A stretch of 53,716 nt of DNA from a virus. The DNA lies in the IMG/VR virus record IMGVR_UViG_3300050821_002543, positions 1 through 53,716 of that record. The stretch is one strand, 5' to 3'. A program made the position numbers and the translations under genes. Position 1 is the first letter of the stretch. Every line of letters begins with the position of its first letter. Shown here one piece after another: positions 17,126 through 36,673 of this stretch. Below the pieces are notes generated by a model, which did no database searches, had not been told where the DNA came from, and worked only from the letters and a program-made list of their open reading frames with translations.

Positions 17126-19573
17126 ATGTCGTTTGACATATCAATTTACGTCGACCCCGGAGTGTACAGCCAAGAGGTTATCAACCCTAGCTCTTTAGCG
17201 CTGGGGCAACTTCCAACCCTACTGGCAGTTGTTGGTATCGCTCCTCGAGTAGCTGTAGTCTCTAATGAGGCTGTCATTCGAGGACAGGTGAACAACGAGG
17301 CTGTCACCTGGGCAGGTAGCAGTCCTCATACCTATACTACAACCAATGTCGCAACTCGGCGCCAAGCAGATACGACTCTGATTAAGACTACTGGCGGTCA
17401 GAATCAGACGATGCCGAACAATGCCTATCAATGGTTACCAGCCTCTATCACAGGGTTGACTGGACCATTTGACATTGTCTCAGGTTCATTCATCACTCTC
17501 GAACTTGACGGTAACGAGTTTATCTCGATTGCGTTGACTGCTGGTTCTACTCGAACAGCAACTCAAGTTGCAGCAGACATCAATACTGCATTAGCTGCTT
17601 CTCCAGCGTACGGAGTCGCCTATAATGCAGTAGCTACGGCAGTAGCTGGTGCAATCGTCATCACCTCTCCACAGACGATACCAGCAAATTCTGATCTTCG
17701 ATTCATTGCTACTCCACCAGACACTGTTGGATACGTTGGTGATGATTTCACGTTAGTCTTCGGTCACACCAATCCCTACATTGCACAGTCAACACTCCAA
17801 CTGTTCGATTCGTTCTACCTAGGAACGGATACGTACATCATTGACTATGTTGCAGTGAACACCCTCTTGGATGCTCTCCAGAACACTCCAGTGGTGTCTC
17901 TCACTAAGGTTGGTCTTTACGCCAACGTAACGAGTTTTCAACCTACCATCGATTATCAGTTGACGAGTAACAACGTTGACTGGACTCCGAATGTAGAGGG
18001 AGTTGTTACTGGACTTGTTGGTCCATATAACACTTCGGTCAATAATGTCCTCCAGATGGCTCTAAACGGATTGGCAGTTATTACTGTTACTCTGACAAGT
18101 AGTGCTACTCTTGCAGCTTCGGCAGTTGCTGCATCTATCAATGCCGCACTTCTTGCTCAACCAGTCTATGGACCACTCTATGGTAATGTGGCCACTGTTG
18201 TCGGAGGAGCTGTAGTTATTACTCTACCATCTCCGTTTGACGACTTGCCAGTTGCTCAGGGTGTCAATAGCACAATTGAGTTCTACTCGGTTCCAGCCAA
18301 TGCTGTTACGACTGTCTTTGGAATTGCTCTAACGGCTCTTCCATTCCAACAGACTGGTTCTGCTAATCAGCCAGTGGTCGGAGCAACGTACTTTGCTTCG
18401 TACACCTATACTCGTCCAACATCGGCCTACAACAATGTCAGTGAAGTGACGAACCTGTTCTTTAATCCACAGGACTGTTTGGCATATACTGGTCCGATCA
18501 CGGAAGTGAACTTTGCGGATAACACGCTAGGAATTGCTTCGTCTATTGCGTTCCAAAACAATGCACCTAGACTTTTGCTAGTCCAGGTAAATGATTCAAC
18601 GACTCCAGGGTTCCCAACCATCAACGAAGTCAAAGCTGCGATTGATGCTTGTGTGAACAACTCGGACATCACTGATCTTGTTGTCCTTGATACTCGATTG
18701 GCTGTTCAAACCTATTTGCTAACTCACGTTACGAATGAATCTAGCATTACGGAGAAGAACTATCGTCGAGGTTGGTACGGTATGGCTCAAAATACTGCTG
18801 TTGGTGATATCGATAGTCCAGGAACTTTCGTCTATGCTGCTCAGGTTACTCTTCAGGTTCCTCCTGATTCTCCAGGACGAGGACGTTCGATTATTTCCGC
18901 TCCATCTAACGTTTCGTCTGACATTACTTTCGCAGATGGTACCGATCAGATCATCCCTCTTGATTCGACCTACCTGGGAGTTGCTTGCGCAGCTTTGATG
19001 ACCAGTTTCATCAATCTTGCAACTTCTCTGTTGCGAAAGACAATCGTAGGGTTTGACATTCCGAGCTTCCAGACCTATCAGAAGGCAGAGCGAAGGATGC
19101 TGGCCTCGAATGGAGTTAACGTGGTTACGGTTGAAGGAGGACAGTTCGTTCTCACTGACCCGGTGACTACTGAGCAGGGTGCTGGGAACCTTCGAGAGTT
19201 TACTGAAATCAATGCTATGGTTCAGAAGGACAATACTACCAGGACTGTTGACCAGACGCTCAACACGAACGTGGTTGGCATTGTTCCAAGCGATCTTGCA
19301 GATTTCATCAACGACATCAAGGGGTTCATCAGTCTGGCTCTAACCTCTCTGATTGCAGCTGGTGACATTGGTCCGTATGTCGATGCGAATGGTAATACTC
19401 GAGACATCAATCTGCAGACAGATATGCAGGTGTTCCAGTCACCAACGGATCCGACGCAGTTCATATTCAGGTATTTCTACAACTTGCGGTACGTTGCGAA
19501 GCGGTTGTTTGGAGACTATTCGGTCGACAATCCCTTCTTCCAAACGTCACCTAATCAGACTGCTACAGCTTGA
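17126..19573 (+). CDS. Contractile tail sheath protein
   Basis: 815 residues. The N terminus SFDISIYVDPGVYSQEVINP matches the sheath-family opening (PGVY-x-x-E), and the C-terminal half has the conserved sheath core (RGWYGMAQNT, later NVVTVEGGQFVLTDPVTTEQ, NLREFTEINAMVQKDN, and a final helix-strand part with DFINDIKGFISLAL). It polymerises around the tail tube and contracts during infection. Two related inserted domains, about residues 108-205 and 293-400 (both starting TGL-x-GP(F/Y) and including AA-x-(D/S)INXAL-x-x-xPxYG), enlarge it beyond a minimal sheath; they probably decorate the tail surface. Tail tube follows after a short gap. Confidence 0.92.
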   Translation: MSFDISIYVDPGVYSQEVINPSSLALGQLPTLLAVVGIAPRVAVVSNEAVIRGQVNNEAVTWAGSSPHTYTTTNVATRRQADTTLIKTTGGQNQTMPNNAYQWLPASITGLTGPFDIVSGSFITLELDGNEFISIALTAGSTRTATQVAADINTALAASPAYGVAYNAVATAVAGAIVITSPQTIPANSDLRFIATPPDTVGYVGDDFTLVFGHTNPYIAQSTLQLFDSFYLGTDTYIIDYVAVNTLLDALQNTPVVSLTKVGLYANVTSFQPTIDYQLTSNNVDWTPNVEGVVTGLVGPYNTSVNNVLQMALNGLAVITVTLTSSATLAASAVAASINAALLAQPVYGPLYGNVATVVGGAVVITLPSPFDDLPVAQGVNSTIEFYSVPANAVTTVFGIALTALPFQQTGSANQPVVGATYFASYTYTRPTSAYNNVSEVTNLFFNPQDCLAYTGPITEVNFADNTLGIASSIAFQNNAPRLLLVQVNDSTTPGFPTINEVKAAIDACVNNSDITDLVVLDTRLAVQTYLLTHVTNESSITEKNYRRGWYGMAQNTAVGDIDSPGTFVYAAQVTLQVPPDSPGRGRSIISAPSNVSSDITFADGTDQIIPLDSTYLGVACAALMTSFINLATSLLRKTIVGFDIPSFQTYQKAERRMLASNGVNVVTVEGGQFVLTDPVTTEQGAGNLREFTEINAMVQKDNTTRTVDQTLNTNVVGIVPSDLADFINDIKGFISLALTSLIAAGDIGPYVDANGNTRDINLQTDMQVFQSPTDPTQFIFRYFYNLRYVAKRLFGDYSVDNPFFQTSPNQTATA

Positions 19574-19687: not shown

Positions 19688-20140
19688 ATGCCAACTAATC
19701 CTCCGAATACCTTGGTTCGCACTAGCCACGCACTCACAATTCGAGCCAGTGGTATCACAGTTGGAGTAATTCAGAGCTGGGGTCCTGGCCAGAACCGTGG
19801 AGTTACGGGCATCTATGAAATCAACGTAGATACTTCCGGTGAACCTATCGAGAAGGTTCCTGGAAACGTAGGTGGCCTTACTATCCAGGTCTCTCGTTAT
19901 GACCTCTATTCTAGGCGAATGGAGGCTGCATTCGGAACTCCGGATGTTGAGATGCTTGGGAGTCAGGCTAATCCATTCCAAGTTCTTGAGCTCTGGAGGT
20001 TCCCAGACAATACTCAGGAAGGTCGAGTATATACGGGTTGTTGGTTTAGCAACATCGGTCGTACCTACAGTGCTACCGATGCCAGACTAGTACTTGTAAA
20101 TGCAACCATCGAGTACACTCGTCGTCTACGCACAATCTAG
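19688..20140 (+). CDS. Tail tube protein
   Basis: 150 residues directly after the sheath, the usual place and size for the tube subunit. The sequence (ALTIRASGITVGVIQSW, RGVTGIYEINVDTSGEPIEK, then LTIQVSRYDLYSRRME and VLELWRFPDNTQEGRVYTGC) is typical of the T4 gp19-like tube fold of large myoviruses, where the subunits form stacked hexameric rings. The predicted lipoprotein gene begins 8 nt after its stop, with a GGAGA ribosome site. Confidence 0.85.
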   Translation: MPTNPPNTLVRTSHALTIRASGITVGVIQSWGPGQNRGVTGIYEINVDTSGEPIEKVPGNVGGLTIQVSRYDLYSRRMEAAFGTPDVEMLGSQANPFQVLELWRFPDNTQEGRVYTGCWFSNIGRTYSATDARLVLVNATIEYTRRLRTI

Positions 20141-20148: not shown

Positions 20149-20604
20149 ATGAAATTGTTGACTGTTTTGGTTTTGGTGATTGGAGCTCTGACGTGCTCGG
20201 GTTGCTCCCTACTTTCGCAGGCACAGCAGAATCCTATTGCTTTTGAACAGCAAGTTATTCAAGACACTGAGTTGGCTATTGACGCTGCTCAGGTAGTCTT
20301 CGCTACATTCTTGCCTTCTCTGGGAGCTGCTGGACCTGCAGATCAGACGAAGTTTAATGCCTTGCTTACTGATGTTCAGAACGCAGAGCAGGTATTGGCT
20401 GATGCTGCAACTACAGTTCTTCAGTCGGGATCTAGCGTCGACTTGACCCAGTTGATGGCCAACTTGACAACGACGGTTGATGCCCTCGAAACCTTTATCA
20501 ATGGGTTGAAGAGTTCGGCTGCTAATACGGTTGTACCTAATGCTCTAGACAATGTGGTTATCACACTTCACAAAGTGGTAGCAACCTATCGTAAGCCTAG
20601 TTGA
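20149..20604 (+). CDS. Predicted phage-encoded lipoprotein
   Basis: 151 residues with start MKLLTVLVLVIGALTCSGCS: a lysine, a hydrophobic core and a lipobox-like C-S-G-C, so signal peptidase II processing at Cys19 is likely, though Cys rather than Leu at -3 is atypical. The mature part is helical with Ala/Gln-rich heptads (FEQQVIQDTELAIDAAQVVF, TDVQNAEQVLADAATTVL), suggesting a helical bundle. A lipoprotein inside the tail operon is unusual; a superinfection-exclusion or membrane role is possible. ATG is preceded by AGGAGAT. The compound promoter starts at its stop codon. Confidence 0.75.
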   Translation: MKLLTVLVLVIGALTCSGCSLLSQAQQNPIAFEQQVIQDTELAIDAAQVVFATFLPSLGAAGPADQTKFNALLTDVQNAEQVLADAATTVLQSGSSVDLTQLMANLTTTVDALETFINGLKSSAANTVVPNALDNVVITLHKVVATYRKPS

Positions 20605-20648: not shown

Positions 20649-20760
20649 CTTTGCACCAGATAGTGAAATTACGTCTGGTACAATAAGTAGAGAATCTCCG
20701 AGTAGCAACCTGCTACGATGACGGATTCTAGGGAGCGACGTAAAGTCAGCTCCCTTTTTT
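20649..20760 (+). ncRNA. Structured short RNA or attenuated leader with three hairpins
   Basis: From the predicted start after TATACT to a terminator T-run, about 112 nt contain no ORF and three stacked hairpins. Hairpin 1: ACCAGA (20655-20660) with TCTGGT (20674-20679). Hairpin 2: an outer AGAATC (20691-20696)/GATTCT (20724-20729) pair enclosing GTAGCA (20702-20707)/TGCTAC (20711-20716). Hairpin 3 is the terminator. This layout fits either a small phage RNA or a leader that controls read-through into the tail chaperone and tape-measure genes. No known riboswitch class is recognised. Ends are inferred. Confidence 0.6.
20731..20760 (+). terminator. Intrinsic terminator upstream of the tail chaperone gene
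   Basis: GGGAGC (20731-20736) pairs with GCTCCC (20749-20754), followed by six T. It lies between promoter copy 4 and the chaperone gene, so it either ends a small RNA or acts as an attenuator. Confidence 0.88.
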
Positions 20761-20785
20761 GTGTTCATCCGTTAGGAGATTGGAT

Positions 20786-21358
20786 ATGGCGAAAGAAACT
20801 GATAAGGCTAAGAAGCAGGGAGCTCTATCCCTGCTTGATGATTTGGCTAAAGAGTTGGACGAAGGACGTCTTGAAGGGACGTTCGAGGTTCGAGGTATAT
20901 TCTGGAAGATGCAGTTGCTCCAGGATCATGAAGTCAACTGGGCAAACGGTTTTCAGAGAACCAACTCTACTTTGTCTATGCTGACCTCTCGTAGGGCTCC
21001 TACGTTAGCCATTGGCATTAGAGCAATCGGTAAGAGTGAAGATACCATGAAGTCTGTTCGTCAGTATTTCATGGACGAGTGGGAAGCCGAACGTGGTGAA
21101 CTTGATGCTACGGTTAAAGCTATTCTGGATAATGCCAACGAGTATATTCAGCAGTACTGGTTTGCGGAGCAACTCTTCAAGTGGCTTTCGGTTAGACCAC
21201 CAGAATTTGTCTCCGCCCTCTGGGTGAAGTGGCAATCTCTTGAGGAGAGGAGGACCGAAGCCGAGAAGGCCATGGGAAAATCCTCAGTGGAGGATGGGAC
21301 CTTGTCGAAGACTCCTCCGACCCCTTCCTCAGTACCATCCGCTCAGACAGCGACCTGA
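20786..21358 (+). CDS. Tail assembly chaperone, G-type (short frame)
   Basis: 190 residues; the start at 20786 is chosen for its AGGAG (20774-20778), although the frame is open upstream. Located between tail tube and tape-measure genes, the fixed position of tail chaperones. The product is soluble, alpha-helical and charged (ALSLLDDLAKELDEGR, VKAILDNANEYIQQYWFAEQLF), with no phage capsid signature. Near its 3' end the slippery sequence GGGAAAA (21274-21280) allows a -1 shift into the overlapping open frame, as in lambda G/GT. The non-shifted tail is short and Pro/Ser/Thr-rich. The terminator just upstream may limit its transcription. Confidence 0.8.
   Translation: MAKETDKAKKQGALSLLDDLAKELDEGRLEGTFEVRGIFWKMQLLQDHEVNWANGFQRTNSTLSMLTSRRAPTLAIGIRAIGKSEDTMKSVRQYFMDEWEAERGELDATVKAILDNANEYIQQYWFAEQLFKWLSVRPPEFVSALWVKWQSLEERRTEAEKAMGKSSVEDGTLSKTPPTPSSVPSAQTAT
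21274..21280 (+). other. Programmed -1 frameshift slippery heptamer
   Basis: Zero-frame codons are ATG GGA AAA TCC, so the site is G GGA AAA, an X-XXY-YYZ heptamer differing from the lambda G/GT site (GGGAAAG) only in the last base. The -1 frame is open from 21244, past the heptamer, to 22044. Downstream, TCCTC (21281-21285) can pair with GAGGA (21290-21294); further on, GGAGGA and TCCTCC could also pair. A purine-rich AGGAGG lies upstream. Confidence 0.82.
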
Positions 21359-21417: not shown

Positions 21418-22044
21418 ATGTCGGACCCTCGTTTAAAACACATGACGAGAGTTCGATGGCTTTGGGAAGCTTGGCAATTGAAGTTGAAGGAAGACGCTGA
21501 AGTTACTCGCATTAACAAAACTGGTGAGCAATCCTTCAAGGCTTTTCGAGATATTCTATGCTCTATTCTTGGTACGAATTTGGAACCGATTACACAGTCT
21601 GATGGTACGGTTCGATGGCCAACAGAGGGTGAGTTTACACCGTTGATTTATGCTATTGCACGACCTGACTATCTGAAGTCTGCAATGGAGAAGATCAATA
21701 ACCTAGTAGCAGGTCAGTCGGGTCCTGATCCAGTTGATCCTGAGGCAGAGGGTGGTTACACCGAAGACGATCTTCAATTCTTCGATGAATTGCCTGTTGA
21801 CACTAAGAAAGCTTTCTGGGATAGTCCAGAAATGAAGTCGCAATTGCGACAACTCGTTATCCAGAAAGATCCGAGAACTGTCAATCCGTACGATAAGAAG
21901 CAACCTAAACCTCTAGGTCTTGACGCAGAGTTCGTTAAGCAAATGCAAGAGGAAGACGAGAACTTCGGTCGAAAGAAGAAAGCCAGAATGGAACTTCTGG
22001 AAGAAGACGATATTGACTTTCCACCTGGGTTTGGTATGAAATGA
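21418..22044 (+). CDS. Tail assembly chaperone, T part of a G-T fusion
   Basis: The open frame runs from 21244 to 22044; the ATG at 21418 has only a weak ribosome site. The frame is -1 relative to the upstream gene, and after the slip at 21280 it would add 254 residues to the first 165, a 419-residue fusion. Such G-T fusions bind the tape-measure protein and recruit tube subunits. The T part is helical and acidic (PRLKHMTRVRWLWEAWQL, then a C-terminal lysine/arginine cluster FGRKKKARMELLEEDDID). It overlaps the first tape-measure ATG by 4 nt. Independent initiation at 21418 cannot be excluded. Confidence 0.72.
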   Translation: MSDPRLKHMTRVRWLWEAWQLKLKEDAEVTRINKTGEQSFKAFRDILCSILGTNLEPITQSDGTVRWPTEGEFTPLIYAIARPDYLKSAMEKINNLVAGQSGPDPVDPEAEGGYTEDDLQFFDELPVDTKKAFWDSPEMKSQLRQLVIQKDPRTVNPYDKKQPKPLGLDAEFVKQMQEEDENFGRKKKARMELLEEDDIDFPPGFGMK

Positions 22045-24374
22045 CACTTGGCGCTGATATAACGATCGAGGGTATTGAGGAAGCCTCTTCATCCGTTACG
22101 GAACTGGGAAAGGCAGTAGAGAATCTCGATCCTATAGCTGAGCGTATGAGTAAGATCTTGCAAAACATGGAAGGTTCGCTTTCCATGTTGACACAAGAGA
22201 TTGAGAAACACCAAACCCAGGTAGAGCAACTCGCCAACAAAAGTCAACAACAAGACAAAACAAATCGTTCGGAAGAAGCTGAACGACGCCAAGAAGCTGA
22301 AGAACGTAGACTTCGTGCCAAGATGGCACAACTTGTTGGTGGTGGTGTTAACTCTGCGCAGTACCAAATCCAACTGGAAAAAGTACAAGCTCAGATGGAC
22401 GCCATTCGTGAGGCAGAGGCTAAAGGGCTTATTACTAGTAGAGAGTCTCTACTAGCTGTCGCAGGTCTTGGTAAGGAGTATCTGAAGCTGAAGACGGAGG
22501 CAATTGCTTACAGTGCTGCTGGAGGTGGAGCTGTAGGTAGGATTGCAGCTGCTGGAGCTCAGAAGATTACAAGTCTTCCAGGTCAAGCTGTAGGTGCAGT
22601 AGGTTCTCAGGTCTCAGGTATCGGATCTGGTGTTATGGGTCTGATGTCTTCCTTACCCATCGCTGGAGGACTCTTTGGTTTGATGATGTACGGTGTTATG
22701 AACACCGATCGTATCAAAGCAGAGACTGGCGAGATAATGAACATCGTTGCTTCCGCTACTGGAGGTATGTCTGATACTGCTGTGAAATTTCTAGGAGATT
22801 TTCAACAGCAGGCCTCTCATCTTTGGGGCATTCAGAAAGGTGAAATTCAGTCTGTTCTTAAGACCTTTACTGATGCTGGTCTAACAGCCAACACCATTAT
22901 GACGCAGCAAAAGGCAAATCTAGGTATTGTGGGTCATGATATCATGACCCTAACGTTAGCCTTAGACAAGAATTTCGAACTAGCCACTGGTTCAAGTGCC
23001 CGATCCGTAGTAGCGTTAACGAACGACTTTGGTATGGGTATCAAGGAGGCTGGTGATCTGTATGAGAGAATGGCATTTGCAGGTTCTAGATCTGGAATGG
23101 GAGTACAGAATTTCCTAAACTACGTAATGCAAGGTTCTAGTGCTTTGCGTCAATACGGAGTTTCGGTTGAACAGGTTGAAACCACCTTACTCACGATTCA
23201 AGAACGATATGAATCGTTGGGGATGACCAAACAACTGGCTGGAAATCAGGCTGGACTTGCTCTTGGTCAGATCTCACAAGGTATTGGTGGTATGAGTCAA
23301 TCTATGCAAGCCTACTTTGGCGAGCGTATGGGATTAGGAACTGGTCTAGAAGCTAGAATGAATTTCCGTGATGGGATGTCAAGGTTGAGTAAAGGGACGG
23401 CCTCTGATACCTTTATGACCTCCTTCATTGAACAGGCATATAGAACTGCTATGGAATCAGGTGGTGGTGACAAACCACAAGCTCGATTCCTACTCGAAAA
23501 TCAGGGGTTTGGAGCCGAAGGAGCTAAAGCTATTATTGAGATTGGTGATAAAGTCGCCCATGGTGTGAAATTCCACGAATTGTCCGCTGCTGAACAGAAG
23601 GCTATCAAAGAGTCTTTGACAACTGAAGGTCAGAAGACTAGTGATATACAGAAGGACATTTGGAAGATCATGCAGGGGATGGCTCAAGTTGGTGAAGGTA
23701 TCCTACAAGTTATCACCAATATGGTGGCTTGGGGTGTTATGGGTCTGAAGAGTATCATAACTCTCATTGCAGGAACTCCAGAAGAGAAAAAGCACATCAT
23801 GGAAGTGCTTGGTGAGTTTTCTAAGGGAATGGGAGAGGGCTTCAATAAGATTACAGATGGGGGTAAGAACAGTTTATATGGAGTTGGAGGACTCCTAGAA
23901 CCGATCTTTAAGCCACTTCAAAGAGCAATGGAATTCGATCCATTGAAGACAGAATCAGAACAGCAATTTGCTACTGGAGCCAAAGGTGCTGAGCATGCTA
24001 AGCATGCTTTAGAAAGTACTTGGAGCAAGGTTGATAAAAACTTCAAGAACCTCCCTCCAGAAGAAAAGAAGAAGCGAATTCAACTCATGATTCAGCATAT
24101 GCATGAGAAGAAGGAGATGGAGGATATCACCTCCAAGTTGGGGAATGAAGGGATTGACTTTAAACCTGATCTAGGTTCTCCTCAAGGTCCTCCACCACTA
24201 CCTCAGGTCACTCCAGCAGCTTCTCAAGTCTCTCAACAGCAAGCCATTACAGCTGGAGTTTCAAATCCGTTTGGTGGAAGTCCTACTCCAGCAGGTACAG
24301 TTACGAAGGTAATCGTGAAGGTCAAACCTGACCAAACGGGTCCAACAACTCCTCGCCCTATGACTGGTCACTAA
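22041..24374 (+). CDS. Tape-measure-like protein 1 of 3
   Basis: 777 residues, starting in the chaperone stop (ATGA). The first 150 residues are a charged coiled coil (EKHQTQVEQLANKSQQQDK). A hydrophobic segment (GVMGLMSSLPIAGGLFGLMM) follows, then a region conserved in all three paralogues: DRIKAETGEIMNIV, a FTDAGLTANTIMTQQ stretch, GHDIMTLTLALDKNFEL. A second hydrophobic helix (ILQVITNMVAWGVMGLKSII) and a Pro-rich tail end the protein. In myoviruses the tape measure sets tail length and carries membrane-active segments. Position after the G/GT chaperone makes the call. Having three is unusual. Confidence 0.78.
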   Translation: MTLGADITIEGIEEASSSVTELGKAVENLDPIAERMSKILQNMEGSLSMLTQEIEKHQTQVEQLANKSQQQDKTNRSEEAERRQEAEERRLRAKMAQLVGGGVNSAQYQIQLEKVQAQMDAIREAEAKGLITSRESLLAVAGLGKEYLKLKTEAIAYSAAGGGAVGRIAAAGAQKITSLPGQAVGAVGSQVSGIGSGVMGLMSSLPIAGGLFGLMMYGVMNTDRIKAETGEIMNIVASATGGMSDTAVKFLGDFQQQASHLWGIQKGEIQSVLKTFTDAGLTANTIMTQQKANLGIVGHDIMTLTLALDKNFELATGSSARSVVALTNDFGMGIKEAGDLYERMAFAGSRSGMGVQNFLNYVMQGSSALRQYGVSVEQVETTLLTIQERYESLGMTKQLAGNQAGLALGQISQGIGGMSQSMQAYFGERMGLGTGLEARMNFRDGMSRLSKGTASDTFMTSFIEQAYRTAMESGGGDKPQARFLLENQGFGAEGAKAIIEIGDKVAHGVKFHELSAAEQKAIKESLTTEGQKTSDIQKDIWKIMQGMAQVGEGILQVITNMVAWGVMGLKSIITLIAGTPEEKKHIMEVLGEFSKGMGEGFNKITDGGKNSLYGVGGLLEPIFKPLQRAMEFDPLKTESEQQFATGAKGAEHAKHALESTWSKVDKNFKNLPPEEKKKRIQLMIQHMHEKKEMEDITSKLGNEGIDFKPDLGSPQGPPPLPQVTPAASQVSQQQAITAGVSNPFGGSPTPAGTVTKVIVKVKPDQTGPTTPRPMTGH

Positions 24375-24375
24375 T

Positions 24376-25161
24376 ATGGTAGCTCCTGATTTAGCAACTG
24401 CATTCGGTGTTTCCAATCTACTAAAGAGGGGCAATGGAACCGCTATTCGAACAGCGATGGAGATGTCTTGTCTCCTATGGAGAGCTCAGAACCTACCCTC
24501 TCTGAAAATGATGGTTAACCCTCACTCTGTTACTTTCAACCAACCAAAGCGCATTACAAAGAAAAATACACAGGGTGGAACTGTTTACACCCATTGGACT
24601 GATCTAAATGGTCAGAACAATGACATTTTGGAGCTTCAGTTTAAGGGACGCTCTGGAAACATTCGACAACAACCAGATCCAGCCAAAACTGGAATTCTTC
24701 AAAGTGTTGCTAACGGTTTGCAATTAGGAGCTAATGCTCTTACTGGCACTACTGGGGACATGAATACGCCAACTCCCAATCAGGGATTAGCAAAACACAT
24801 AGCTTGGTCTCAGTTGTATCAGTTGACTAGGTTACCAGTTGTAGATCCAGCGACTCGACTAAGGAATGTCTTCGATATCACTTACATCAGTCCGATACTT
24901 CCTAGGCCAGTAGTGTTTCTGGGGTTTTACAATAACGTGCTGAATTTTACGGAAGACGCTGATCGGCCATGGCTGATTGAGTACAGTTACAGTTTCATTG
25001 TACAATCAACTCAACCGTCTCTTGATACTCTCACTCAGATGCTAACCCAACTTCTAAACAGTTCGGCTACAGGATTGGCTGCGTCTGAGATTACAACTTC
25101 TCAAGCCCAACAGTCTTCAACTACTGGAGCTGTTACTGGTGCGAACTTTAAGCAGGGATGA
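24376..25161 (+). CDS. Baseplate-hub or tail-interior structural protein
   Basis: 261 residues between tape-measure paralogues 1 and 2. Residues 45-95 contain NPHSVTFNQPKRITKKNTQG then TVYTHWTDLNGQNNDILELQ and FKGRSGNI, similar to phage hub or tail-adaptor proteins in which a N-P-x-S-x-x-x-x-x-x-K-R-I-T-K segment starts a beta domain. The C-terminal half continues in the same style (GFYNNVLNFTEDADRPWLIE) and ends in a Ser/Thr/Gln-rich tail. It probably belongs to the hub rather than the tape measure. Its stop overlaps the next ATG (ATGA). Confidence 0.62.
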   Translation: MVAPDLATAFGVSNLLKRGNGTAIRTAMEMSCLLWRAQNLPSLKMMVNPHSVTFNQPKRITKKNTQGGTVYTHWTDLNGQNNDILELQFKGRSGNIRQQPDPAKTGILQSVANGLQLGANALTGTTGDMNTPTPNQGLAKHIAWSQLYQLTRLPVVDPATRLRNVFDITYISPILPRPVVFLGFYNNVLNFTEDADRPWLIEYSYSFIVQSTQPSLDTLTQMLTQLLNSSATGLAASEITTSQAQQSSTTGAVTGANFKQG

Positions 25162-27338
25162 AGTCAGTCAATCTACCTACTGAACGATTTCATAGAGCCG
25201 TCACTTGGCTTGGTGAGGCCATCACTAAGTTCAATTCTTCTGAAGAAGGATTGAAAGAGTCGTTAGACGGTCTTAAAGAATCCATTCAATTACAGGATGA
25301 GGTCTCTAAACCGAGCAAGGATGAAGAAGCTCTGATATTCGTAATGGAGCAGAAGAGCGCCTTAGTTAAGGCATCCTCGAGTGTTGGTAAGTTGGCTCCA
25401 CTCCTTGAGGGAACTGAACTAATACCTGGTTTTACGAAGAACAGTGCTTCGGCCTACATTGAACTTCAGAAAGCTCATAAAGATCTTCTTGAGATGCAAG
25501 AAGCTGTTGCTTTAGGCATCATTGACGAAAGGGAGGCTTCAACTGACCTAAAGAAGCTACGTAAATCTCTCGGTATTGCTCAAAGGAAAGCTGAAGGTCT
25601 TCCTGAGGGTGTAGATATGGGAGACGACCTACAAAAGGGTTCTGGCTCTTCTTCTTTGTCAGGTGTAAGCTCTCTCGTTAAAAGTGGTCTTCAAGCCCTT
25701 GGAGGTCAAGTTGGTGGAATAGCCACTGGTTCAATTGGTCTCCTTGGATCCTTACCAGTTGTTGGAGGCCTCTTTGGGTTAATGCTATACGGATTCAAAG
25801 AACGCGATAGAATGAAAGCCCAACTTGGTGAGTTAACCAATATCGCAATTGGAGCAGGAGCAAAGGGTACAGAAGAAGGTGTATCGTGGTTAGCTGGTTT
25901 TCAAGAGCGATCTCAAAACTTCTACGGTATTAGTCGCCAGTCTATTCAAGGCATCTTCAAGACTTTCACGGATGCAGGTATGGCTGTTAATGATATTTTC
26001 AAGCAGCAATCTGCCTCATTAGGTGAAGTTGGTCATGATGCTGTAACTATGACCCTAGGTATGGATCGTGTATTTGAGTTGGGTAATGGAACCACAGCTC
26101 GAAATGCAGCAAAGATCATGAGTTCATACGGTGTTAGTCTAAGTTCGGCTATTGACAGTCTTGTCAATATTGAGTTTGCCGCCAGTAAAGCTGGGTTTGG
26201 AGTAAACACGTTTCTCAATTGGTTGATGCAATCAACCATGCAAGTTCGTAACCTAGGTATTACTACTGATCAGATGGCTGATGCTGCTCTTGAAATGCAG
26301 AGAAAGATGTCTGAGGAGGGTTTTAGTCATTCTCAGACATGGGCAATGCAATCAGTTGGAGAAGCTGCTCAAGGCTTAGCCAATATGGGTACAGGTCGCC
26401 AAATCTGGATGGCAGAAGAGTTAGGTCTTGGAAAGGGTTTGGCTGGTCGACAAAATCTGATGCAAGGGTTTCAAGAAGACCGACCTGAACTCTTTGCAAA
26501 AGCAGCTGGTCTTTATCGAAAAGAAGCCATGCAAGCCACAGGTGGAGATCAGGATGCTTCTTTATTCTATTTGGAACGCTTAGGATTTGGGTTTCAGGGT
26601 GCTAAGGCTATTCTCCACTTAGGTGAGATGGAAGAGAAGGGACTTAAGATCGAGATAGCTAGCTCAGCAGATAAGAAGGCTCTTCGTGAGGCTTTTCAAG
26701 TTGAAGGTAAGAAGAAGAGTAGTATCGGAGAGATGATAAGGGATGCTACTTTAGGTATGGCTAAGATAGGTCAAGGTATCCTTGTTATGCTTTCCAATTT
26801 TTTGGGTTGGATTATTACCTCAGTCAAAGCTATTCCCGTTTTGATGAGTGTAGGTACTCCTGAGCAGAAGCAGATCGTTTACAAGGAACTTGGGGAACGG
26901 TTTGATGGTATGGCTATGGGTTGGAACGATATCCGTATGGGAGGGAAACAAGCTTATGCTGGTATGGCAGGAATAATCAAACCGCTCCTCGCTCCGATTG
27001 ATAAGGCATTCAATTACAAGATGGGTAGCTCTCATCTCGAGAGCAGGGATCCGATTGAGGTTGATATTGAGTCTTTACCAATGGTTGACTCTCCCCCAGG
27101 TCATCAATCTACTCAGGTAGGATTTACTCCTAAGGGTAAACCTCTAAACCCTCATACTAGTTCGGCTTCTGGACCTTCACCTCAAAGTCCAACTTCTACT
27201 GGCGCACCAAATCACTCTTCAACTCCACCACACGGTACGAAAACGTCGTTCTTTGATCCGAAACATGTTCAGGTTATCTGGGCTCCTGGAGCTGATCGAG
27301 CAGATCACCTAACGGTTGAAATTTCTGTAACTACATGA
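25158..27338 (+). CDS. Tape-measure-like protein 2 of 3
   Basis: 726 residues, paralogous to the 22041 product. Shared landmarks in the same order: coiled-coil N terminus, hydrophobic GSIGLLGSLPVVGGLFGLML, DRMKAQLGELTNIA, then KTFTDAGMAVNDIFKQQSA, GHDAVTMTLGMDRVFEL, and LGLGKGLAGRQNLMQGF, a second membrane-type helix (ILVMLSNFLGWIITSVKAI) and a Pro/Ser-rich C terminus. Divergence between copies is large, so the duplication is old. No lytic domain is seen. It overlaps both neighbours by 4 nt, making a translationally coupled block. Confidence 0.76.
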   Translation: MKSVNLPTERFHRAVTWLGEAITKFNSSEEGLKESLDGLKESIQLQDEVSKPSKDEEALIFVMEQKSALVKASSSVGKLAPLLEGTELIPGFTKNSASAYIELQKAHKDLLEMQEAVALGIIDEREASTDLKKLRKSLGIAQRKAEGLPEGVDMGDDLQKGSGSSSLSGVSSLVKSGLQALGGQVGGIATGSIGLLGSLPVVGGLFGLMLYGFKERDRMKAQLGELTNIAIGAGAKGTEEGVSWLAGFQERSQNFYGISRQSIQGIFKTFTDAGMAVNDIFKQQSASLGEVGHDAVTMTLGMDRVFELGNGTTARNAAKIMSSYGVSLSSAIDSLVNIEFAASKAGFGVNTFLNWLMQSTMQVRNLGITTDQMADAALEMQRKMSEEGFSHSQTWAMQSVGEAAQGLANMGTGRQIWMAEELGLGKGLAGRQNLMQGFQEDRPELFAKAAGLYRKEAMQATGGDQDASLFYLERLGFGFQGAKAILHLGEMEEKGLKIEIASSADKKALREAFQVEGKKKSSIGEMIRDATLGMAKIGQGILVMLSNFLGWIITSVKAIPVLMSVGTPEQKQIVYKELGERFDGMAMGWNDIRMGGKQAYAGMAGIIKPLLAPIDKAFNYKMGSSHLESRDPIEVDIESLPMVDSPPGHQSTQVGFTPKGKPLNPHTSSASGPSPQSPTSTGAPNHSSTPPHGTKTSFFDPKHVQVIWAPGADRADHLTVEISVTT

Positions 27339-30064
27339 AAGCGATTACTCAAACAAATAACTTGGGAGAAGCGATTAGCTTCTTCAACCTCAAGGCAGAT
27401 AGGCTTGAGAAGGTGTTTGAGGAAGCTAAGAAGTATTCTAAGACTCTCACAGAGATGAGGGTTCAAATTCGTGATTTGAAGAAACGTCCTCTTCCTCCTG
27501 ATGGGCCTGAGGAAGGTATGGGTGGTTATTCTGCTGAAGAAATTCGCTTTCTAGAAGAGATAGAAGCAAAATCAAGAGGGTTGTCTATCTCAGCAGGAGT
27601 AGAGACCTTATCAACCGATTTGGCTAGAGTGTCTCTCCAATTGGCGGAGATAGACGAGTCATTTTCTCGAGGAATCATCACAGAAAAAGAACATAAACAT
27701 GCTCTCGAAAAAGTAAAGGTTGAGTGGGAGCATATCCATGAGACTACCACAAGCCTTTTGGGAGTAGATTTACGACCATCCCATTTGGCTAAGGAAGGGG
27801 CGTCGAAAATTGGTTCTGGAGCTTTGGGTCAACTAACAGGAGTTGCTTCAGGTGTAATGGGATTGATGTCCTCTTTACCAATTGCTGGAGGACTCTTTGG
27901 TCTTCTCATGTATGGGTATTCTCAAGCCGATAGACTAAAAGCAGAATCAGGAGAGATGTTGAACGTTCTCGTTTCAGGAGGCCAAGCAACGTCCCAACCA
28001 TTCCTAAATCATCTTTCGGGACTCGGAGAGAAATTTCAACAGTTCTATGGCATCAGTCGTCGAGAGGTTCAAGGAATTGTCAAGGAGTTCATCTCTGGAG
28101 GGGCTACGATTGAAGATTTGATGCAAACAACACACCGAAATCTTGGTGAAGTAGGACAAGATGTTGTTACAATGACAATTGGTCTTGACAAGATGTTCGA
28201 ACTTGCGTCAGGAAGTTCAGCGAAGTTAGCCCAAGCCTTAGTAGAAGATCATGGAGTGAAACTAGGAACAGCAGTTGATCAGTTGATTCGAATAGAGTTT
28301 GCTGGCAGTCGTGCTGGAGCAGGTGTTGGAACCTTCACTGAATTCGTGGTTAAGACAGCTGGAGAGCTACAGAATTTTGGAATCGGAGGAGAATCTGTAG
28401 CAGCAAGTCTCGTTTCTCTTCAAGAACGCTATCATACCGTAGCTGGTTTGAATGTCCAAACATCGATAGCCTATGCCCAACTGGGTATGAGTCAAGTAAG
28501 TCAAGGAGTTCAAGGTCTGAATTTTGGATTAAAATCAACTGTTGGTGAGTTGATGGGTTACGGTACTGGATTTGGAGCTGCTACTGGTTTACAGGATGCT
28601 ATTGCTTCCAATGATCCGAATCAGTTAGTTAAGCTAATAAAAGCTTTGAACACTCTGGCTGCTAGAGAAACAGAAGGTACCGGAGGAAGTTCCAATGATA
28701 CCATTAGACAAAGGGCTTATTTAGAGTCAATTGGAATGGGTGCAGAAGGTGCTCGAGCTTTGACTGAGTTAGCCAAATTACACGGAGGAAGGTCCAATCT
28801 ACAAAATCTCACTGCGAAAGAGCTAGCTGAGTTTAGGGAGACCCTAAAGACAGAAGCTCAGAAGCAGAGTGAGATGACCCAAAACATTCATGAGGTACTT
28901 AAGGGAATGGCTGGAATGGGTCAATCCATTCTCAAACTTGCTGCTGACTTTGCCGGACTTTTGATTGTAACCATCAAAGGTATGATGGCGACCGAAGCTC
29001 TGGATTGGATGGGGCATCTTGGTAAGGCAGCTGCAGATGGAATTGTTAGTACGTTCAAAGATTTGACAGGGTGGGATCTATCAGATAAAACAGCACCATT
29101 CAAAGCTAAGACCGATGTGGATAAGGCTGTTCAAGGACAATTCGATTTCTATCTCAAATCAATTAGCGGAGATTTCTCGGACTTACTAAAGGGTACATCT
29201 CAAGTTGGAACTGGAATCAGCAAAGTAGCTCTCCCATTGATAACACCGATTGTACATGCCTTCAAAGAAATGGGAGTACCCTCCGATTGGGCAGATCCGC
29301 AAGCTTCGACTCCAGAATCGAGAACTCGTTCTGAGAAGGGACCACATTACGCAGCCCCAGAAGGACCTAAGCAAACTCAAAGCGGAGACTTCTGGACACA
29401 ATTTGTTGTTATGAGCAATCGACTAGGAGTTAAGCCAGAAGAATTACTGAAGGTGTTTAACTCGGAAAGCGGATTCAATTCTCATACTGTTGCATATCGA
29501 GATTCCCACGGCAGGGCAACTAAGAAGGATGATCCAGACGCTCATGCTGTAGCCAAAGGTATTCAGCAGCTTACGTGGGAAACTGCTAGAGGATTAGGCA
29601 TGCCCAAGGAAGTATGGGACAACTTCGAGAACGTTAGTCCGCAAGAGCAACTAAAGTATGTTGAGCGATATTACTCGGGTAGAGCTGCTGGAAAGAATGC
29701 GGCTGAAATATATGCGATGAACTTCGGTGGATACAACAATCCGAATGGTTCTCTATATGACCGAGACGCTCGATCGAAAGGTTATCACAATCCAGGGTTT
29801 CAAGAGATCGCCTATCGATCTAATCAAGGATTGGATCGTGATCATAAAGGGTATATCACAGCAGAGGACCTTGCTCGAAATCTCTCAAAGGTTAGTGCCT
29901 CTCAGCAGGCAGCTTTAACCAAAGTTCGCCACACTTTGGGAATGTCAGAAACAGGTAAAGCTATTCCTGATCCATTAGATCCAGTTTTAGTAGCTGAGGT
30001 TAAGGCTACCAAAACTTCGGCAGGAGTCAACCAAGTGACACTATCTTTGGAGGTTCACCAGTGA
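27335..30064 (+). CDS. Tape-measure-like protein 3 of 3 with lytic-transglycosylase-like domain
   Basis: 909 residues. The first ~640 match the other two copies (GVMGLMSSLPIAGGLFGLLM, DRLKAESGEMLNVL, GQDVVTMTIGLDKMFEL). Residues about 684-820 are an added domain of soluble lytic transglycosylase type: VFNSESGFNSHT with a probable catalytic Glu711, AKGIQQLTWETARGLG, and MNFGGYNNPNGSLYDRDA. Then comes a Ca-binding EF-hand-like loop, DRDHKGYITAED at 834-845. The domain would cleave peptidoglycan during tail penetration. A promoter-like element follows the stop. Confidence 0.82.
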   Translation: MKAITQTNNLGEAISFFNLKADRLEKVFEEAKKYSKTLTEMRVQIRDLKKRPLPPDGPEEGMGGYSAEEIRFLEEIEAKSRGLSISAGVETLSTDLARVSLQLAEIDESFSRGIITEKEHKHALEKVKVEWEHIHETTTSLLGVDLRPSHLAKEGASKIGSGALGQLTGVASGVMGLMSSLPIAGGLFGLLMYGYSQADRLKAESGEMLNVLVSGGQATSQPFLNHLSGLGEKFQQFYGISRREVQGIVKEFISGGATIEDLMQTTHRNLGEVGQDVVTMTIGLDKMFELASGSSAKLAQALVEDHGVKLGTAVDQLIRIEFAGSRAGAGVGTFTEFVVKTAGELQNFGIGGESVAASLVSLQERYHTVAGLNVQTSIAYAQLGMSQVSQGVQGLNFGLKSTVGELMGYGTGFGAATGLQDAIASNDPNQLVKLIKALNTLAARETEGTGGSSNDTIRQRAYLESIGMGAEGARALTELAKLHGGRSNLQNLTAKELAEFRETLKTEAQKQSEMTQNIHEVLKGMAGMGQSILKLAADFAGLLIVTIKGMMATEALDWMGHLGKAAADGIVSTFKDLTGWDLSDKTAPFKAKTDVDKAVQGQFDFYLKSISGDFSDLLKGTSQVGTGISKVALPLITPIVHAFKEMGVPSDWADPQASTPESRTRSEKGPHYAAPEGPKQTQSGDFWTQFVVMSNRLGVKPEELLKVFNSESGFNSHTVAYRDSHGRATKKDDPDAHAVAKGIQQLTWETARGLGMPKEVWDNFENVSPQEQLKYVERYYSGRAAGKNAAEIYAMNFGGYNNPNGSLYDRDARSKGYHNPGFQEIAYRSNQGLDRDHKGYITAEDLARNLSKVSASQQAALTKVRHTLGMSETGKAIPDPLDPVLVAEVKATKTSAGVNQVTLSLEVHQ

Positions 30065-30135: not shown

Positions 30136-32805
30136 ATGGCACGACAGACAGGTGCAGAGCAGGCTTCGTCCGGAGTAAGTGGAGTTGGGTACAGTACAGT
30201 TCGAAACTTCTTTCCTTCGTATCGTGTCTTCGTAGCAGGCTTCGAAGTTACCGCAATATGCTCTGCTGTTCGAATCAATTGGGCTGATAGAAATCCTCAA
30301 CAAGTGCAGATCGAGCTTAATAACCCTGATCAGTTGATGACCATAACTGAGGCCGATATGCTGACCATTTCAGCCTATCGACAAGGACTAACAACTCAGT
30401 TTCCTACTCAGGCTGGATTAACTGCAGCAAGTCAACAGGTAGGTCAAATCTACGAAGCTGCCGGTCAAACTCTTGACCCCAGTACTCAGGGTTTAGCAAC
30501 CCCTCCTGATCAGGTAAACATAGGTGTGGAGGTTGATGGATCCGCTCCAGTAACCCCTGAGAATCTCACTCAGGCTATTATAGCAGCAGCCACAGGTCAG
30601 GTGTTCTTTCAACCTTATGGGGTTACTGCTTTACCACCATTTACTTTGGACATACTAAACCTGAAGAATTATGTCATCCCTCCTAAACTTCAGGTTTTGT
30701 ATCGACAAAACACGATGGGGGTTGATGGTGCTTTGCTCCCTCTGGAGACATTCTTTAAGTATCCATTCGTTCAGGGACAATGGATTTGGCACCATAACGA
30801 TCCGGTTAGGGTAGCTTTTCGTGACCCTGTTGATCCAACAACTTGGTACTGGATGCATGCTGGTACTGTTACGGATATCAACGAAAAGGAGAACGAAGAC
30901 AGTCAGTCTAGCTTAACGCTTACCTCAGAATGCGTTCTAAAAGATCTTCGAAATAGTCGTCTCGCAAATACAACAGCATCGTTTCTTTCTCCGAGTCAGC
31001 TATCGTCCGTAACTGGTCAACAGGTCGCGGTATCACCTGAGCAATTATCAGCATTTACTGATGCTGAATACACTGATCTTTTGACCAATCTCACTTTAGC
31101 TCAGATTTTGGAGTTGATGATATTTGGTTCACAGGCTCTGTTGGACAACCTAGGTCAGTTGGTGTATAGTTCCACTCCTCCATCTGTAATAGCCGAAGTA
31201 CTAGGAGTAACTCCAGTTCAGGCACAGGAACAAGGCGAGAGTTTGACCCAGTTGACTGATCAGACTATTACAAGTTTGCAACAGCAACTAAGAGCAAATG
31301 TTGTTGCTGGTCTCGCCGACTTCAAGAAATGGAAGGCTACTCAAGGCGTCCAGATTATGATCTTGACGGGATCTACAGGTCTGGCGATTGGAACTTCTAG
31401 TCCGGTTGGATCTTCTAATCCTAACCCAGCTTTAACCCCAGCAGACCAAGCTATTGGAGTAGCTCTTGCTAATGGTCTGCCTGATTGGCAGGGATTGCTA
31501 GATCATCGAGTAACGATTGATGATCTAACGGATTTCTACATTGTGGATAAGGTATCTATGGGCTCAACCTCTGATACTGCTGGTCGTCCTCCAGGAGCAA
31601 ATAGGTTCAGTCAGCAACCGTCGATTAGGAATACACAGACTCAGAACGCTCAGCAGATGGTTAATGATTACATCCAGAGTGCTTCTGACCCAAACCTCGC
31701 TACTTCAGCACAGGCTCAACACGCTAATCTGATCGATACTATTATTACTACGATCGGTTCGAACCCAGACGATTATCCTATTAGACAGAGAGTGTATTGC
31801 TTACTTCCTGCTAATCTAGGAGCTCGATTAGGTCGACAAATCCTTGATCTGGAGATGGCTGGTAATCCATCGTCTACTGCGGAGTATTATGATCGTCTCT
31901 CCTTACTTGTAAACGTGATGAATCGAATCGAATTCTCACTATACGGTACTGGTAGAGGAGATATTGTCGTAGAGATGCCGTTGTATGATTTCGAACCTCG
32001 ACACTTTGCTTCTGCTGGCGAATTGAATAATCCGTTTACTGAACCTAATAACCCTCCTCAGAATGATAGTAGCACATACGGTTCGAATCTCCAGGAAGGT
32101 TTTGATGAACTAGCCAATATTCAAGGGGCTGAAGACGAGATCAATTTCATTGGTTTGGAAGCTACAAACTACGATCTCAATTATCGAATTTTCCCATGGG
32201 AGCAATGTGGTTGTGATATTACAGCTACTGATCAAGACATAAAGACAGTGTGGGTTGCCAAAGGTAGGTTAGTAGCTCAAAACAAGTCTGGATCTAACGA
32301 CAAGAAGAGGGTAGCTGTTGCTCTACCGAATCTTGTTCCTCTTTACGGTTTTAGAGTTGAGCAAGGAGACCCGCAGGGTTATCTTCGATCTGATGATGCT
32401 GTTCGACTATTTTGTTTTGCTCAATTGAACAAGACAAATGCGGATATAGTTTCTCTCCATGTACCCTGTACCCCAAATTGGACTGCTTGGCTAAATCGAC
32501 CTGTTCAAGTGGATCGTAGAAGCATTATTGGGGCTACGAAGTCTATCAATCATTCCATTGTTTGGCAATCCGACATCTCTACCGAGTATGGTTTCTGGCA
32601 TTGTAAGTTTTGGGATGGTCGAATCGTAAATGATACTGTTACAGGGAAACCTCGAAAGCTTTATGCTACATTTGGAGGAGTCAATGCCCAACCATTCAAC
32701 TATGCTTACTTGCTGAAACGAGATAGTATTAATCAAGCTCTTGGAACTTCAGTTGGTTCCTCCCAAGCCGATTCAAATGCACAGACTCCAGGAACGAATC
32801 CGTAA
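30136..32805 (+). CDS. Baseplate hub protein (gp27 / late-control-D-like)
   Basis: 889 residues, first in the baseplate block. The start has YRVFVAGFEVTAICSAVRIN, the pattern of hub proteins binding the spike (a V-x-G-x-x-V-x strand pair), then PQQVQIELNNPDQLMTITEA and further jelly-roll-like strands. The C-terminal half (VHWx-like NWTAWLNRPVQVDRRSIIGA, HCKFWDGRIVNDTVTGK) resembles the beta-barrel part that pairs with the OB-fold of the spike. It is larger than T4 gp27 (391 residues), with Gln/Pro-rich insertions. Adjacent to the OB-fold gene, as in other myoviruses. Probable function: trimeric hub connecting tube and spike. Confidence 0.7.
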   Translation: MARQTGAEQASSGVSGVGYSTVRNFFPSYRVFVAGFEVTAICSAVRINWADRNPQQVQIELNNPDQLMTITEADMLTISAYRQGLTTQFPTQAGLTAASQQVGQIYEAAGQTLDPSTQGLATPPDQVNIGVEVDGSAPVTPENLTQAIIAAATGQVFFQPYGVTALPPFTLDILNLKNYVIPPKLQVLYRQNTMGVDGALLPLETFFKYPFVQGQWIWHHNDPVRVAFRDPVDPTTWYWMHAGTVTDINEKENEDSQSSLTLTSECVLKDLRNSRLANTTASFLSPSQLSSVTGQQVAVSPEQLSAFTDAEYTDLLTNLTLAQILELMIFGSQALLDNLGQLVYSSTPPSVIAEVLGVTPVQAQEQGESLTQLTDQTITSLQQQLRANVVAGLADFKKWKATQGVQIMILTGSTGLAIGTSSPVGSSNPNPALTPADQAIGVALANGLPDWQGLLDHRVTIDDLTDFYIVDKVSMGSTSDTAGRPPGANRFSQQPSIRNTQTQNAQQMVNDYIQSASDPNLATSAQAQHANLIDTIITTIGSNPDDYPIRQRVYCLLPANLGARLGRQILDLEMAGNPSSTAEYYDRLSLLVNVMNRIEFSLYGTGRGDIVVEMPLYDFEPRHFASAGELNNPFTEPNNPPQNDSSTYGSNLQEGFDELANIQGAEDEINFIGLEATNYDLNYRIFPWEQCGCDITATDQDIKTVWVAKGRLVAQNKSGSNDKKRVAVALPNLVPLYGFRVEQGDPQGYLRSDDAVRLFCFAQLNKTNADIVSLHVPCTPNWTAWLNRPVQVDRRSIIGATKSINHSIVWQSDISTEYGFWHCKFWDGRIVNDTVTGKPRKLYATFGGVNAQPFNYAYLLKRDSINQALGTSVGSSQADSNAQTPGTNP

Positions 32806-34823: not shown

Positions 34824-35243
34824 ATGTCAAAGACGTTTTTGATGACAAATGGAGACGTTAGTTATGGTGGTGGTCAGGTTAAAACTATCTCTGACGGACC
34901 AAAACTCTCGCAAGATCTTTTGGAGATGTTGAGTATCAACACTCAACCAGATGGTTTTGGAGCAGGTATTGTTACACTTTTGGGGCAAAGTGCTCAGATT
35001 AGTGATGGCAAATACCAGAACATAGAATTCTCCGTTCGAGATCGACTCACTTCAGGTTGTAATAGATTTGTTAGTCTCCAAAGACAGAATTTGACAAATC
35101 GACCCACAAACGAGTTGATCTCCTCAATTCTCAATCTCCAGGTAGCGCAGAGCACTGACGATCCAACTACCTATTTTTGGCGAATCGACTTTCAGACATA
35201 CGCTGGACAGCAGCAATCACTACAGGGTAGGGCAACCTCTTGA
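34824..35243 (+). CDS. Baseplate wedge protein (gp25-like candidate)
   Basis: 139 residues immediately before the J-like gene, as gp25/W is in many myoviruses. The sequence starts KTFLMTNGDVSYGGGQVKTI followed by DLLEMLSINTQPDGFGAG and later RPTNELISSILNLQV and FWRIDFQTYAG. This is a short beta-alpha domain in the size range of gp25 (about 130 residues), although the canonical E-P-R-x motif is not obvious, so the family call leans on order. Its stop overlaps a TTG start of the next gene. Confidence 0.65.
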   Translation: MSKTFLMTNGDVSYGGGQVKTISDGPKLSQDLLEMLSINTQPDGFGAGIVTLLGQSAQISDGKYQNIEFSVRDRLTSGCNRFVSLQRQNLTNRPTNELISSILNLQVAQSTDDPTTYFWRIDFQTYAGQQQSLQGRATS

Positions 35244-36673
35244 GCGTTCCGAGGATAACTGCAGCTCAATTTGCTCAGAATCTCGCTACGGATATTAACC
35301 AGCGAGATGCAACAGTTGATACTACCCTTGGTCCTGTTGTAGACATCGTTATCAGACCAGTTTCTCGTGTATTGGAAGCACAGAATGAGCGCATACGAGC
35401 TCTATTCCAACTGATTACCCTTCAGAATGTCAATCTTCTCGATCCGAATGATCTAGCTGCTTATGTTTACACCGAAGAGGTTATTCCTTCTGGAGGAACA
35501 GCTTCCTTTGTCAGTCTAACATTCTCTCGGGCCGCTCTTCCTACAGTTGATATTACTGTTCCAGCCAACTTTCCTGTAGCTACTGTAGTAGATCCTAGTA
35601 CTGGTGTTCAAACAACGTTCGTTACGTTGCAATCTGCTACTTTGGTAGCAGCTAATGCTCCAGCTTATTTCAACGGGTCAACTAGTAGATATGAGCTGAA
35701 CATTACAGCCTCATCGATCAACTCTGGTCAAGCTACAGCAGTAGGTCAAAATCAGGTAACAGTACCACTACGACCTTTGGTTGGGTTTGATTCTGTAACC
35801 AACCCTGCTATATCATCTGGTGGTTTACCAGCTGAGACGAATCAGCAGATTGCTACTAGATATTCTTTGAGGACCAAAGGAACTGAGATTGGTACTCCTC
35901 AGGGTTTGTCGAGATATATCTTCCAAACTTTCGGAAATGTGGAGGATGTGTTTGTAGTATATGGAAACAATCCATTCCTAACGAGAGCTGCCACTGACGC
36001 TGGTGCTGTTGATATTTGGGTGCAAGGATCTTCTCCTGTTCAGTTGACTATGACAGTCAACTTTCCAGGACAATTGGTGTTGATACCATTCAGTATTCAA
36101 CCTGGCATTTCTGTTCAGACGGTTCAGTCCGGTCCAACATTTACTCAGAACGTAGATTTTGTCTATGTTTCTGATCCTGGTATCTACTCCGGATCAACTC
36201 TAGGACAGGATGGTATCAGGTTCCTTGGTACTGGAGCTTCTCCAAATGTAGGTGATCCCCTTACCATCACTTACACGTACGACAACCTAATCGTAGCTCT
36301 ACAGTCGTTCTTCCAGCAACCAGAGTATCTTGAAACTGGGTCTAATCGCCTATTTCGAAGAGGTATTGCTGTTCAAGTTGCAATTACTGGAATTCTAACG
36401 GTGAATGCAGGTAATCCTACTTTGGTGTTGCAGCAAGTGATAACAGCTTTGCTAAACTACATCAATGGAAGTACAACCCAAGCTGCTTTGGGGATGGGAG
36501 TGGCTGTGGAAGAGTTTGAACTTGATGCTGTTCTCAGTCTAATACCTGGTGTAGGAAACTTTGTGTACCAACTTCTCGCACCTGTTGGACAACTCGGAGT
36601 AGCAGATATTCCGATTGGTCCAAATCAATACGCTAGTCTCAGCTCCGCGAATCTAGCCATAACGTTGGCGTAA
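35240..36673 (+). CDS. Baseplate J-like wedge protein
   Basis: 477 residues from a TTG that overlaps the previous stop as TTGA. The N terminus (INQRDATVDTTLGPVVDIVI) matches the opening of J-like wedge proteins, followed by the family's characteristic beta region (ATAVGQNQVTVPLRPLVGFD, VTNPAISSGGLPAETNQQIA) and the signature RYSLRTKGTEIGTPQGLSRY, close to the R-x-R-I-x-x-x-x-x-x-G-T pattern. In the baseplate it forms the wedge that links hub and fibres. The TTG is accepted because no alternative start keeps the conserved N terminus and coupling is common here. Confidence 0.85.
   Translation: MSVPRITAAQFAQNLATDINQRDATVDTTLGPVVDIVIRPVSRVLEAQNERIRALFQLITLQNVNLLDPNDLAAYVYTEEVIPSGGTASFVSLTFSRAALPTVDITVPANFPVATVVDPSTGVQTTFVTLQSATLVAANAPAYFNGSTSRYELNITASSINSGQATAVGQNQVTVPLRPLVGFDSVTNPAISSGGLPAETNQQIATRYSLRTKGTEIGTPQGLSRYIFQTFGNVEDVFVVYGNNPFLTRAATDAGAVDIWVQGSSPVQLTMTVNFPGQLVLIPFSIQPGISVQTVQSGPTFTQNVDFVYVSDPGIYSGSTLGQDGIRFLGTGASPNVGDPLTITYTYDNLIVALQSFFQQPEYLETGSNRLFRRGIAVQVAITGILTVNAGNPTLVLQQVITALLNYINGSTTQAALGMGVAVEEFELDAVLSLIPGVGNFVYQLLAPVGQLGVADIPIGPNQYASLSSANLAITLA

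Follow-up and report, generated by a model that had tools for sequence, protein, structure and literature searches.

Three diverged tape measure paralogs in one viral tail operon and a possible heteromeric tape measure

Introduction

The length of a phage tail is normally set by a tape measure protein (TMP) that is the product of a single gene, and the usual view of a tape measure is that of one gene whose product is repeated within the tail as identical chains. In the structures resolved to date, the TMP usually consists of three identical helical chains, which run in parallel through the tail tube and reach from the hub to the neck. Trimers have been described for the TMP of diffocin (CD1366), at full length (PMC11329794), and for those of phage 812 (PMC12886913) and JBD30 (PMC11445458); for Pam3, sixfold features that perhaps reflect a hexamer have been suggested, as cited in PMC11329794. 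The proteins described here resemble the diffocin, phage 812 and JBD30 TMPs, which are likewise long helical tail-operon proteins that combine hydrophobic helices with a globular, short-helix core, and they probably assemble into the same kind of unit. However, those three systems use one gene and three identical chains, whereas two or three diverged genes are present in the viruses analysed in this work.

We analysed a stretch of 53,716 nucleotides from a virus of an uncultured group (IMG/VR record IMGVR_UViG_3300050821_002543, positions 1 to 53,716; hereafter the window), in which the rule of one TMP gene per genome fails: the window has three predicted TMP genes, and each of 18 further records has two or three. 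A literature search, with most subscription journals outside its reach, did not turn up any earlier account of a tail with paralogous tape measures. Three leads from this search were discarded, given that the 'two tape measure' lead in phage Shady refers to two chaperone genes, that the SuMu lead refers to two database matches and that the paralogs of 0305phi8-36 are, as far as the available part of the source goes, not TMPs.

Results

Three colinear paralogs in one operon

The genes of interest are located on the plus strand of one operon and encode copy 1 (777 aa; 22041..24374), copy 2 (726 aa; 25158..27338) and copy 3 (909 aa; 27335..30064), as the initial annotation of this DNA had claimed for a tail operon. 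Junctions are 4-base overlaps or 1-base gaps; copy 1 overlaps the preceding gene (21418..22044) by four bases, as does copy 2 the gene ahead of it, and the overlap between copies 2 and 3 is the four bases ATGA. BLASTP comparison of copies 1 and 2 gave an E value of 1e-100 (32% identity over 650 columns), with 3e-78 for copies 1 and 3 (33%, 572 columns) and 1e-73 for copies 2 and 3 (28%, 715 columns), and all pairwise alignments are colinear without rearrangement. The three proteins are therefore paralogous and colinear; the initial annotation had proposed a pairwise comparison, and by BLASTP every pair was significantly similar. The ordered landmarks noticed earlier were recovered as well: the SLP, GGLFGL, DR.KA and G.D..T.T..D elements are invariant columns or conserved positions in the alignment of the three copies, and hydropathy analysis revealed two hydrophobic helices in each of them, including the second helix that had been claimed. 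Searching the whole record located exactly three TMP places, which correspond to these three genes. At the DNA level, only short stretches are still alike among the copies, the longest being the GGLFGL region (67-77%), indicating an old duplication rather than an assembly artefact.

Identification as putative tape measure proteins

AlphaFold modelling of copy 1 with 22 aligned sequences yielded an all-helical model, which runs from a long N-terminal helix through a core built of short helices (residues 210-505, most of it with a pLDDT of about 80) to further long helices. The diffocin TMP shows the same plan of a short-helix core and long helices (PMC11329794). The named entries among the leading Foldseek matches of this model to viral models (best E 1.6e-8) were tape measure proteins, TP901-core proteins or minor tail proteins; a fold search against the PDB returned nothing at E<=0.001. 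A match to PF10145 (TP901/PhageMin_Tail) was observed in copy 1 at 22944-23345 (E 1.1e-4, under the curated cut-off), within a core that spans about 22668-23693. In the 15 records tested, sub-threshold matches (E<=0.1) to PF10145 or PF20155 (TMP_3) landed on TMP copies. Their targets comprised the core of window copy 1 and all three copies of both L005 and L065, and in several copies the matched part of the core was the same. The curated family cut-off was reached by no copy, the best scores being 22.7 of 33.2 bits for PF10145 and 21.1 of 41 bits for PF20155.

The position of the genes in the operon, after tube and chaperones and before hub and baseplate, fits a TMP in the window and in its relatives, with chaperone, tube and hub named partly by position. 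In the window, a tail sheath homolog (17126..19573, plus strand, as are all genes in this paragraph) served as synteny anchor and is followed by a tail tube homolog (19688..20140), assigned by position and conserved synteny and matching phrog_985 (E 1.4e-7), a family named only 'virion structural protein'. A putative tail-assembly chaperone (20759..21358), likewise assigned by position and conserved synteny, and a second putative chaperone, which is the gene overlapping copy 1, come next. Between copies 1 and 2 lies hubL (24376..25161), a conserved 261-aa tail gene of unproven identity with a weak match to phrog_1011 ('virion structural protein'). The initial annotation had placed a hub-like gene at this point; a conserved tail gene is indeed found there, but, judged by position, the gene at 30136..32805 is a better candidate for the hub; in single-copy, double-copy and other triple-copy relatives, it directly follows hubL. 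A baseplate wedge homolog is encoded further downstream (35240..36673; phrog_6, E 4.1e-18).

Taken together, the fold search and the weak domain matches lead us to identify the three proteins as putative TMPs, and the tape-measure-like nature suggested earlier is supported by the copy 1 model, its Foldseek matches and the placement of PF10145 and PF20155. It is very improbable that they are helical minor tail or internal proteins sitting in the operon by chance, a reading favoured by the absence of any match above a curated cut-off but opposed by the Foldseek and domain placements, by the position after the chaperones and before hubL, by protein length and by the two hydrophobic helices.

Copy number and gene order in related viruses

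Relatives (labelled L0xx) were collected from IMG/VR scans for the 261-aa gene, for the tube and for the sheath, from one species-genome scan and from tblastn in 50,697 phage records. IMG/VR searches with copy 1 alone or copy 3 alone returned no relatives, and alignments were required as queries. Those TMPs that were searched against isolate phage records gave no match except the single-copy Virus Rctr197k (KX853510), which itself comes from an enrichment culture. The records are mostly fragments in which the tail operon itself is covered; apparent duplicates of one virus were merged, copies were counted record-wide (by locus only for L014), and L030 was left out, given that its one TMP-length ORF in the right place had no model match. 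This provided 31 distinct related records with a syntenic tail operon, of which 12 have one TMP (Rctr197k, L009-L014, L024-L026, L029 and L063), 10 have two (L019, L021, L033, L038, L041, L047, L059, L062, L064 and L066) and nine have three (the window, L005, L006, L035, L037, L049, L051, L056 and L065). Four or more copies were found in none of the 31.

Gene order separates these viruses further. Single-copy viruses are arranged as chaperones-TMP-hubL-hub; Rctr197k shares the tail gene order of the window but has a single TMP (669 aa) directly before hubL and the hub candidate. Most two-copy viruses display the order TMP-TMP(enzyme)-hubL-hub, with the enzyme copy first in L019 and L021. The two kinds of triple arrangement differ in the place of hubL: TMP1-hubL-TMP2-TMP3-hub in the window, L005 and L006, and TMP1-TMP2-TMP3-hubL-hub in the other triple clade, so that hubL comes after the TMP array in single-copy, double-copy and other triple-copy relatives. 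Gordonia phage Stormageddon, a distant sheath relative, encodes a single TMP with no detectable homology to those of the window and was not used. Tail-operon relatives are also carried by contigs of an Archaeoglobales MAG (L015, apparently the same contig as viral record L061, which is equally long) and an Actinomycetes MAG (L014), for which host assignment is uncertain.

One hydrolase-bearing copy per genome

The tape measure of phage phiCbK carries a CHAP domain. As in phiCbK and mycobacteriophage TM4, a hydrolase is fused to a TMP in the multi-copy viruses; there it resides on the sole TMP, while here it resides on one of two or three paralogs. In the window, the C-terminus of copy 3 contains a lytic-transglycosylase-like domain (aa 695-851; 29417..29887, plus strand) with ESGFN and GIQQL motifs. 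This domain matched phrog_196 (E 1.6e-5) and, in tblastn (E 5e-4), a phage Geezett product annotated as 'putative baseplate lysozyme-like protein', whereas its match to Pfam SLT PF01464 (E 0.0097) stayed under the cut-off with 15.9 of 21.3 bits. A PDB sequence search with the domain gave no match, and its single-sequence fold model has a pLDDT of 41, too low to be informative. The lytic domain that the initial annotation had assigned to the third copy can be kept as SLT-like on the strength of the two matches and the motifs.

Exactly one copy ending in a peptidoglycan hydrolase was found in 19 of 19 multi-copy viruses, and five unrelated hydrolase families are represented: SLT-like (the window), PF01832 (two viruses), M23 (two), M15 (two) and SleB-like PF07486 (12). 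The copy 3 orthologs in L005 and L006 carry a Glucosaminidase domain, over the cut-off, in place of the SLT-like one. M23 is located on L021 (over the cut-off) and its ortholog in L019 (under it), and M15 on the enzyme copies of L038 and L041. In L033 and L062, the SleB-like domain exceeds the PF07486 cut-off, whereas in the other ten of its 12 enzyme copies it was assigned by alignment; as the model used was built from the enzyme copies concerned, its informative part is that other copies were unmatched, with weak matches in L038 and L041. No hydrolase was detected in the 28 other copies of the multi-copy viruses or on the single TMPs scanned. One enzyme per genome, drawn from five unrelated families, is not the pattern of redundant copies. 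A conserved CxxC-type element (mostly GNCPRCG) was also observed just ahead of the SleB-like domain in all 12 such copies (L033, L035, L037, L047, L049, L051, L056, L059, L062 and L064-L066).

Duplication history and selection

Phylogenetic analysis of 59 TMPs, along with smaller trees, united all nine TMPs of the window, L005 and L006 in one clade (the window clade; support 100/99), distinct from the three classes of copies that make up the second triple clade. Within it, the copy 1, copy 2 and copy 3 classes each form one clade (100/100, 100/99 and 100/99, respectively), and the copy 2 and copy 3 classes are sisters (97/89). In the second triple clade, copies 1 and 2 are sisters (98/96) inside a 100/100 clade of plain copies, indicating a step from two to three copies by duplication of a plain copy; the enzyme copies of the double and triple viruses in this group form one clade (100/100). 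The separate clade of the window triplet and its different place relative to hubL indicate that three copies arose separately, and thus, judged from these trees and gene orders, the three-copy state has at least two independent origins. The L019/L021 pair may represent a further independent duplication; a single duplication for this pair was neither demonstrated nor rejected in an AU test (p 0.40).

Values of dN/dS ranged from about 0.1 to 0.33 for every copy tested, with synonymous sites near saturation in the more distant pairs; the window lacked a close relative and stood outside this test. These ratios point to purifying selection on every tested copy. In the window lineage, copy 1 is the slowest-evolving, and copies 2 and 3 are faster.

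Core lengths

The core between the two hydrophobic helices has 341, 334 and 343 residues in copies 1, 2 and 3, respectively. The copies differ in length mainly at their ends, and the surplus of copy 3 is its C-terminal lytic domain. Across the 19 multi-copy genomes, the cores of the first and last copies of the same genome differ by 1.9 +/- 2.4 residues, an agreement that partly reflects shared ancestry (r = 0.73 overall and 0.52, p 0.04, inside one clade, with no phylogeny correction). Core length is 346 +/- 4 residues in multi-copy and 350 +/- 13 in single-copy viruses, the single-copy TMPs used for this contrast being more divergent. In 17 of the 19 multi-copy viruses, the N-terminal segment ahead of the core is shorter in the enzyme copy than in the first, plain copy (185 vs 209 residues in the window).

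Discussion

Given that resolved TMPs are usually homotrimers, we propose, with a probability of roughly 0.5 (our estimate being 0.52), that the three gene products are strands of a single tape measure of heteromeric, and most likely heterotrimeric, make-up. The three positions of the trimer would be filled by three different paralogs, or by two of each if the bundle were hexameric. Copies 1 and 2 would act as plain strands, and copy 3 would bring a single peptidoglycan-cutting enzyme at its hub-proximal C-terminus, which may open the wall during injection, while two-gene relatives would assemble 2:1 bundles and one-gene relatives homotrimers. A ceiling of three genes, a plain-copy step from two to three, equal cores and one enzyme strand are all expected if trimer positions went to separate genes. 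Regarding the options raised in the initial annotation, strands sharing one tail together with different jobs for the copies fits best, with comparative support from the maximum of three copies, the at least two routes to three and the one hydrolase copy; the idea of coiled strands of different length fits badly, the cores being equal to within a few residues and the same set being kept through deep divergence. Sharing of one tail is what we infer, as are co-assembly, stoichiometry, strand order and the role in injection. It is also conceivable, at slightly below even chances, that a heterotrimeric ruler evolved at least twice from a homotrimer by duplication, in one clade via a 2:1 intermediate, with one chain becoming the wall-cutter and the others keeping the ruler role. 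Some points weigh against a heterotrimer. An asymmetric 2:1 bundle would be needed in two-copy viruses, the faster-evolving copies 2 and 3 might resemble copies freed from the ruler role, and, as some TMPs may be hexameric, three genes need not equal three chains. No consistent pattern of charge complementarity between the copies was found from the net charges of their helical parts.

The chief rival is a homotrimeric ruler of copy 1 accompanied by pilot proteins, in which the other copies, though derived from a TMP, would not be strands of the ruler bundle but would travel in the tail or head until ejected to digest the wall or to pass the membrane. The slow evolution of copy 1 and its ancestral place directly before hubL, with copies 2 and 3 after it, agree with this, as does the enzyme on copy 3; nevertheless, copies 2 and 3 retain the full TMP architecture of a helical N-terminus, an equal-length core and a second hydrophobic helix, and all copies lie upstream of hubL in the other triple clade, so we regard this reading as unlikely, though a serious contender. 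Alternative rulers, with each copy forming its own homotrimer and one genome producing tails that differ in length or lytic equipment, had also been suggested in the initial annotation. The unequal total lengths (777, 726 and 909 residues) and the specialised particle that the enzyme copy could give would suit such a scheme. Equal cores, on the other hand, suit side-by-side strands and speak against it: the length differences reside in the termini, all copies share a single putative chaperone pair, a single hubL and a single hub candidate, and the same copy set, never exceeding three, has been retained together through deep divergence. Alternative rulers therefore fit badly and are improbable. 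Equally improbable, in our estimate, is a mixed hexameric bundle without fixed composition, in which the copies would be interchangeable and extra genes would add dosage; the suggestion of hexameric TMPs (cited in PMC11329794) lends it some ground, but the copies are not evolutionarily interchangeable, as each clade shows well-supported copy classes and the enzyme is invariably confined to one of them.

The stoichiometry of TMPs is otherwise known from few structures, and genetic evidence on it comes from a family with one, two or three diverged TMP genes, in which separate lineages arrived at three and none went beyond. If the heterotrimer proposal is true, these viruses would illustrate how a homo-oligomer within a viral machine turned into a hetero-oligomer whose chains divide the labour. 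Genomes with one, two or three genes provide a natural comparison for how one enzyme per tail gets delivered.

Further observations on the tail operon

Several neighbouring genes showed features of their own. Two or three tandem tail-tube paralogs occur in many relatives (L004, L009-L012, L024 and L029), and the window has one tube gene, after which a small lipoprotein-like ORF (20149-20604) with a lipobox-like LTCSGC element is located. A 957-aa protein (44406-47279) contains a stretch of about 110 residues that resembles the insertion region in the sheath of L005 and L006 (34-44% identity), which suggests a shared domain. Finally, seven stretches of a 663-aa protein (12142-14133) match phrog_13352 (minor tail protein), and it is probably a repeat protein.
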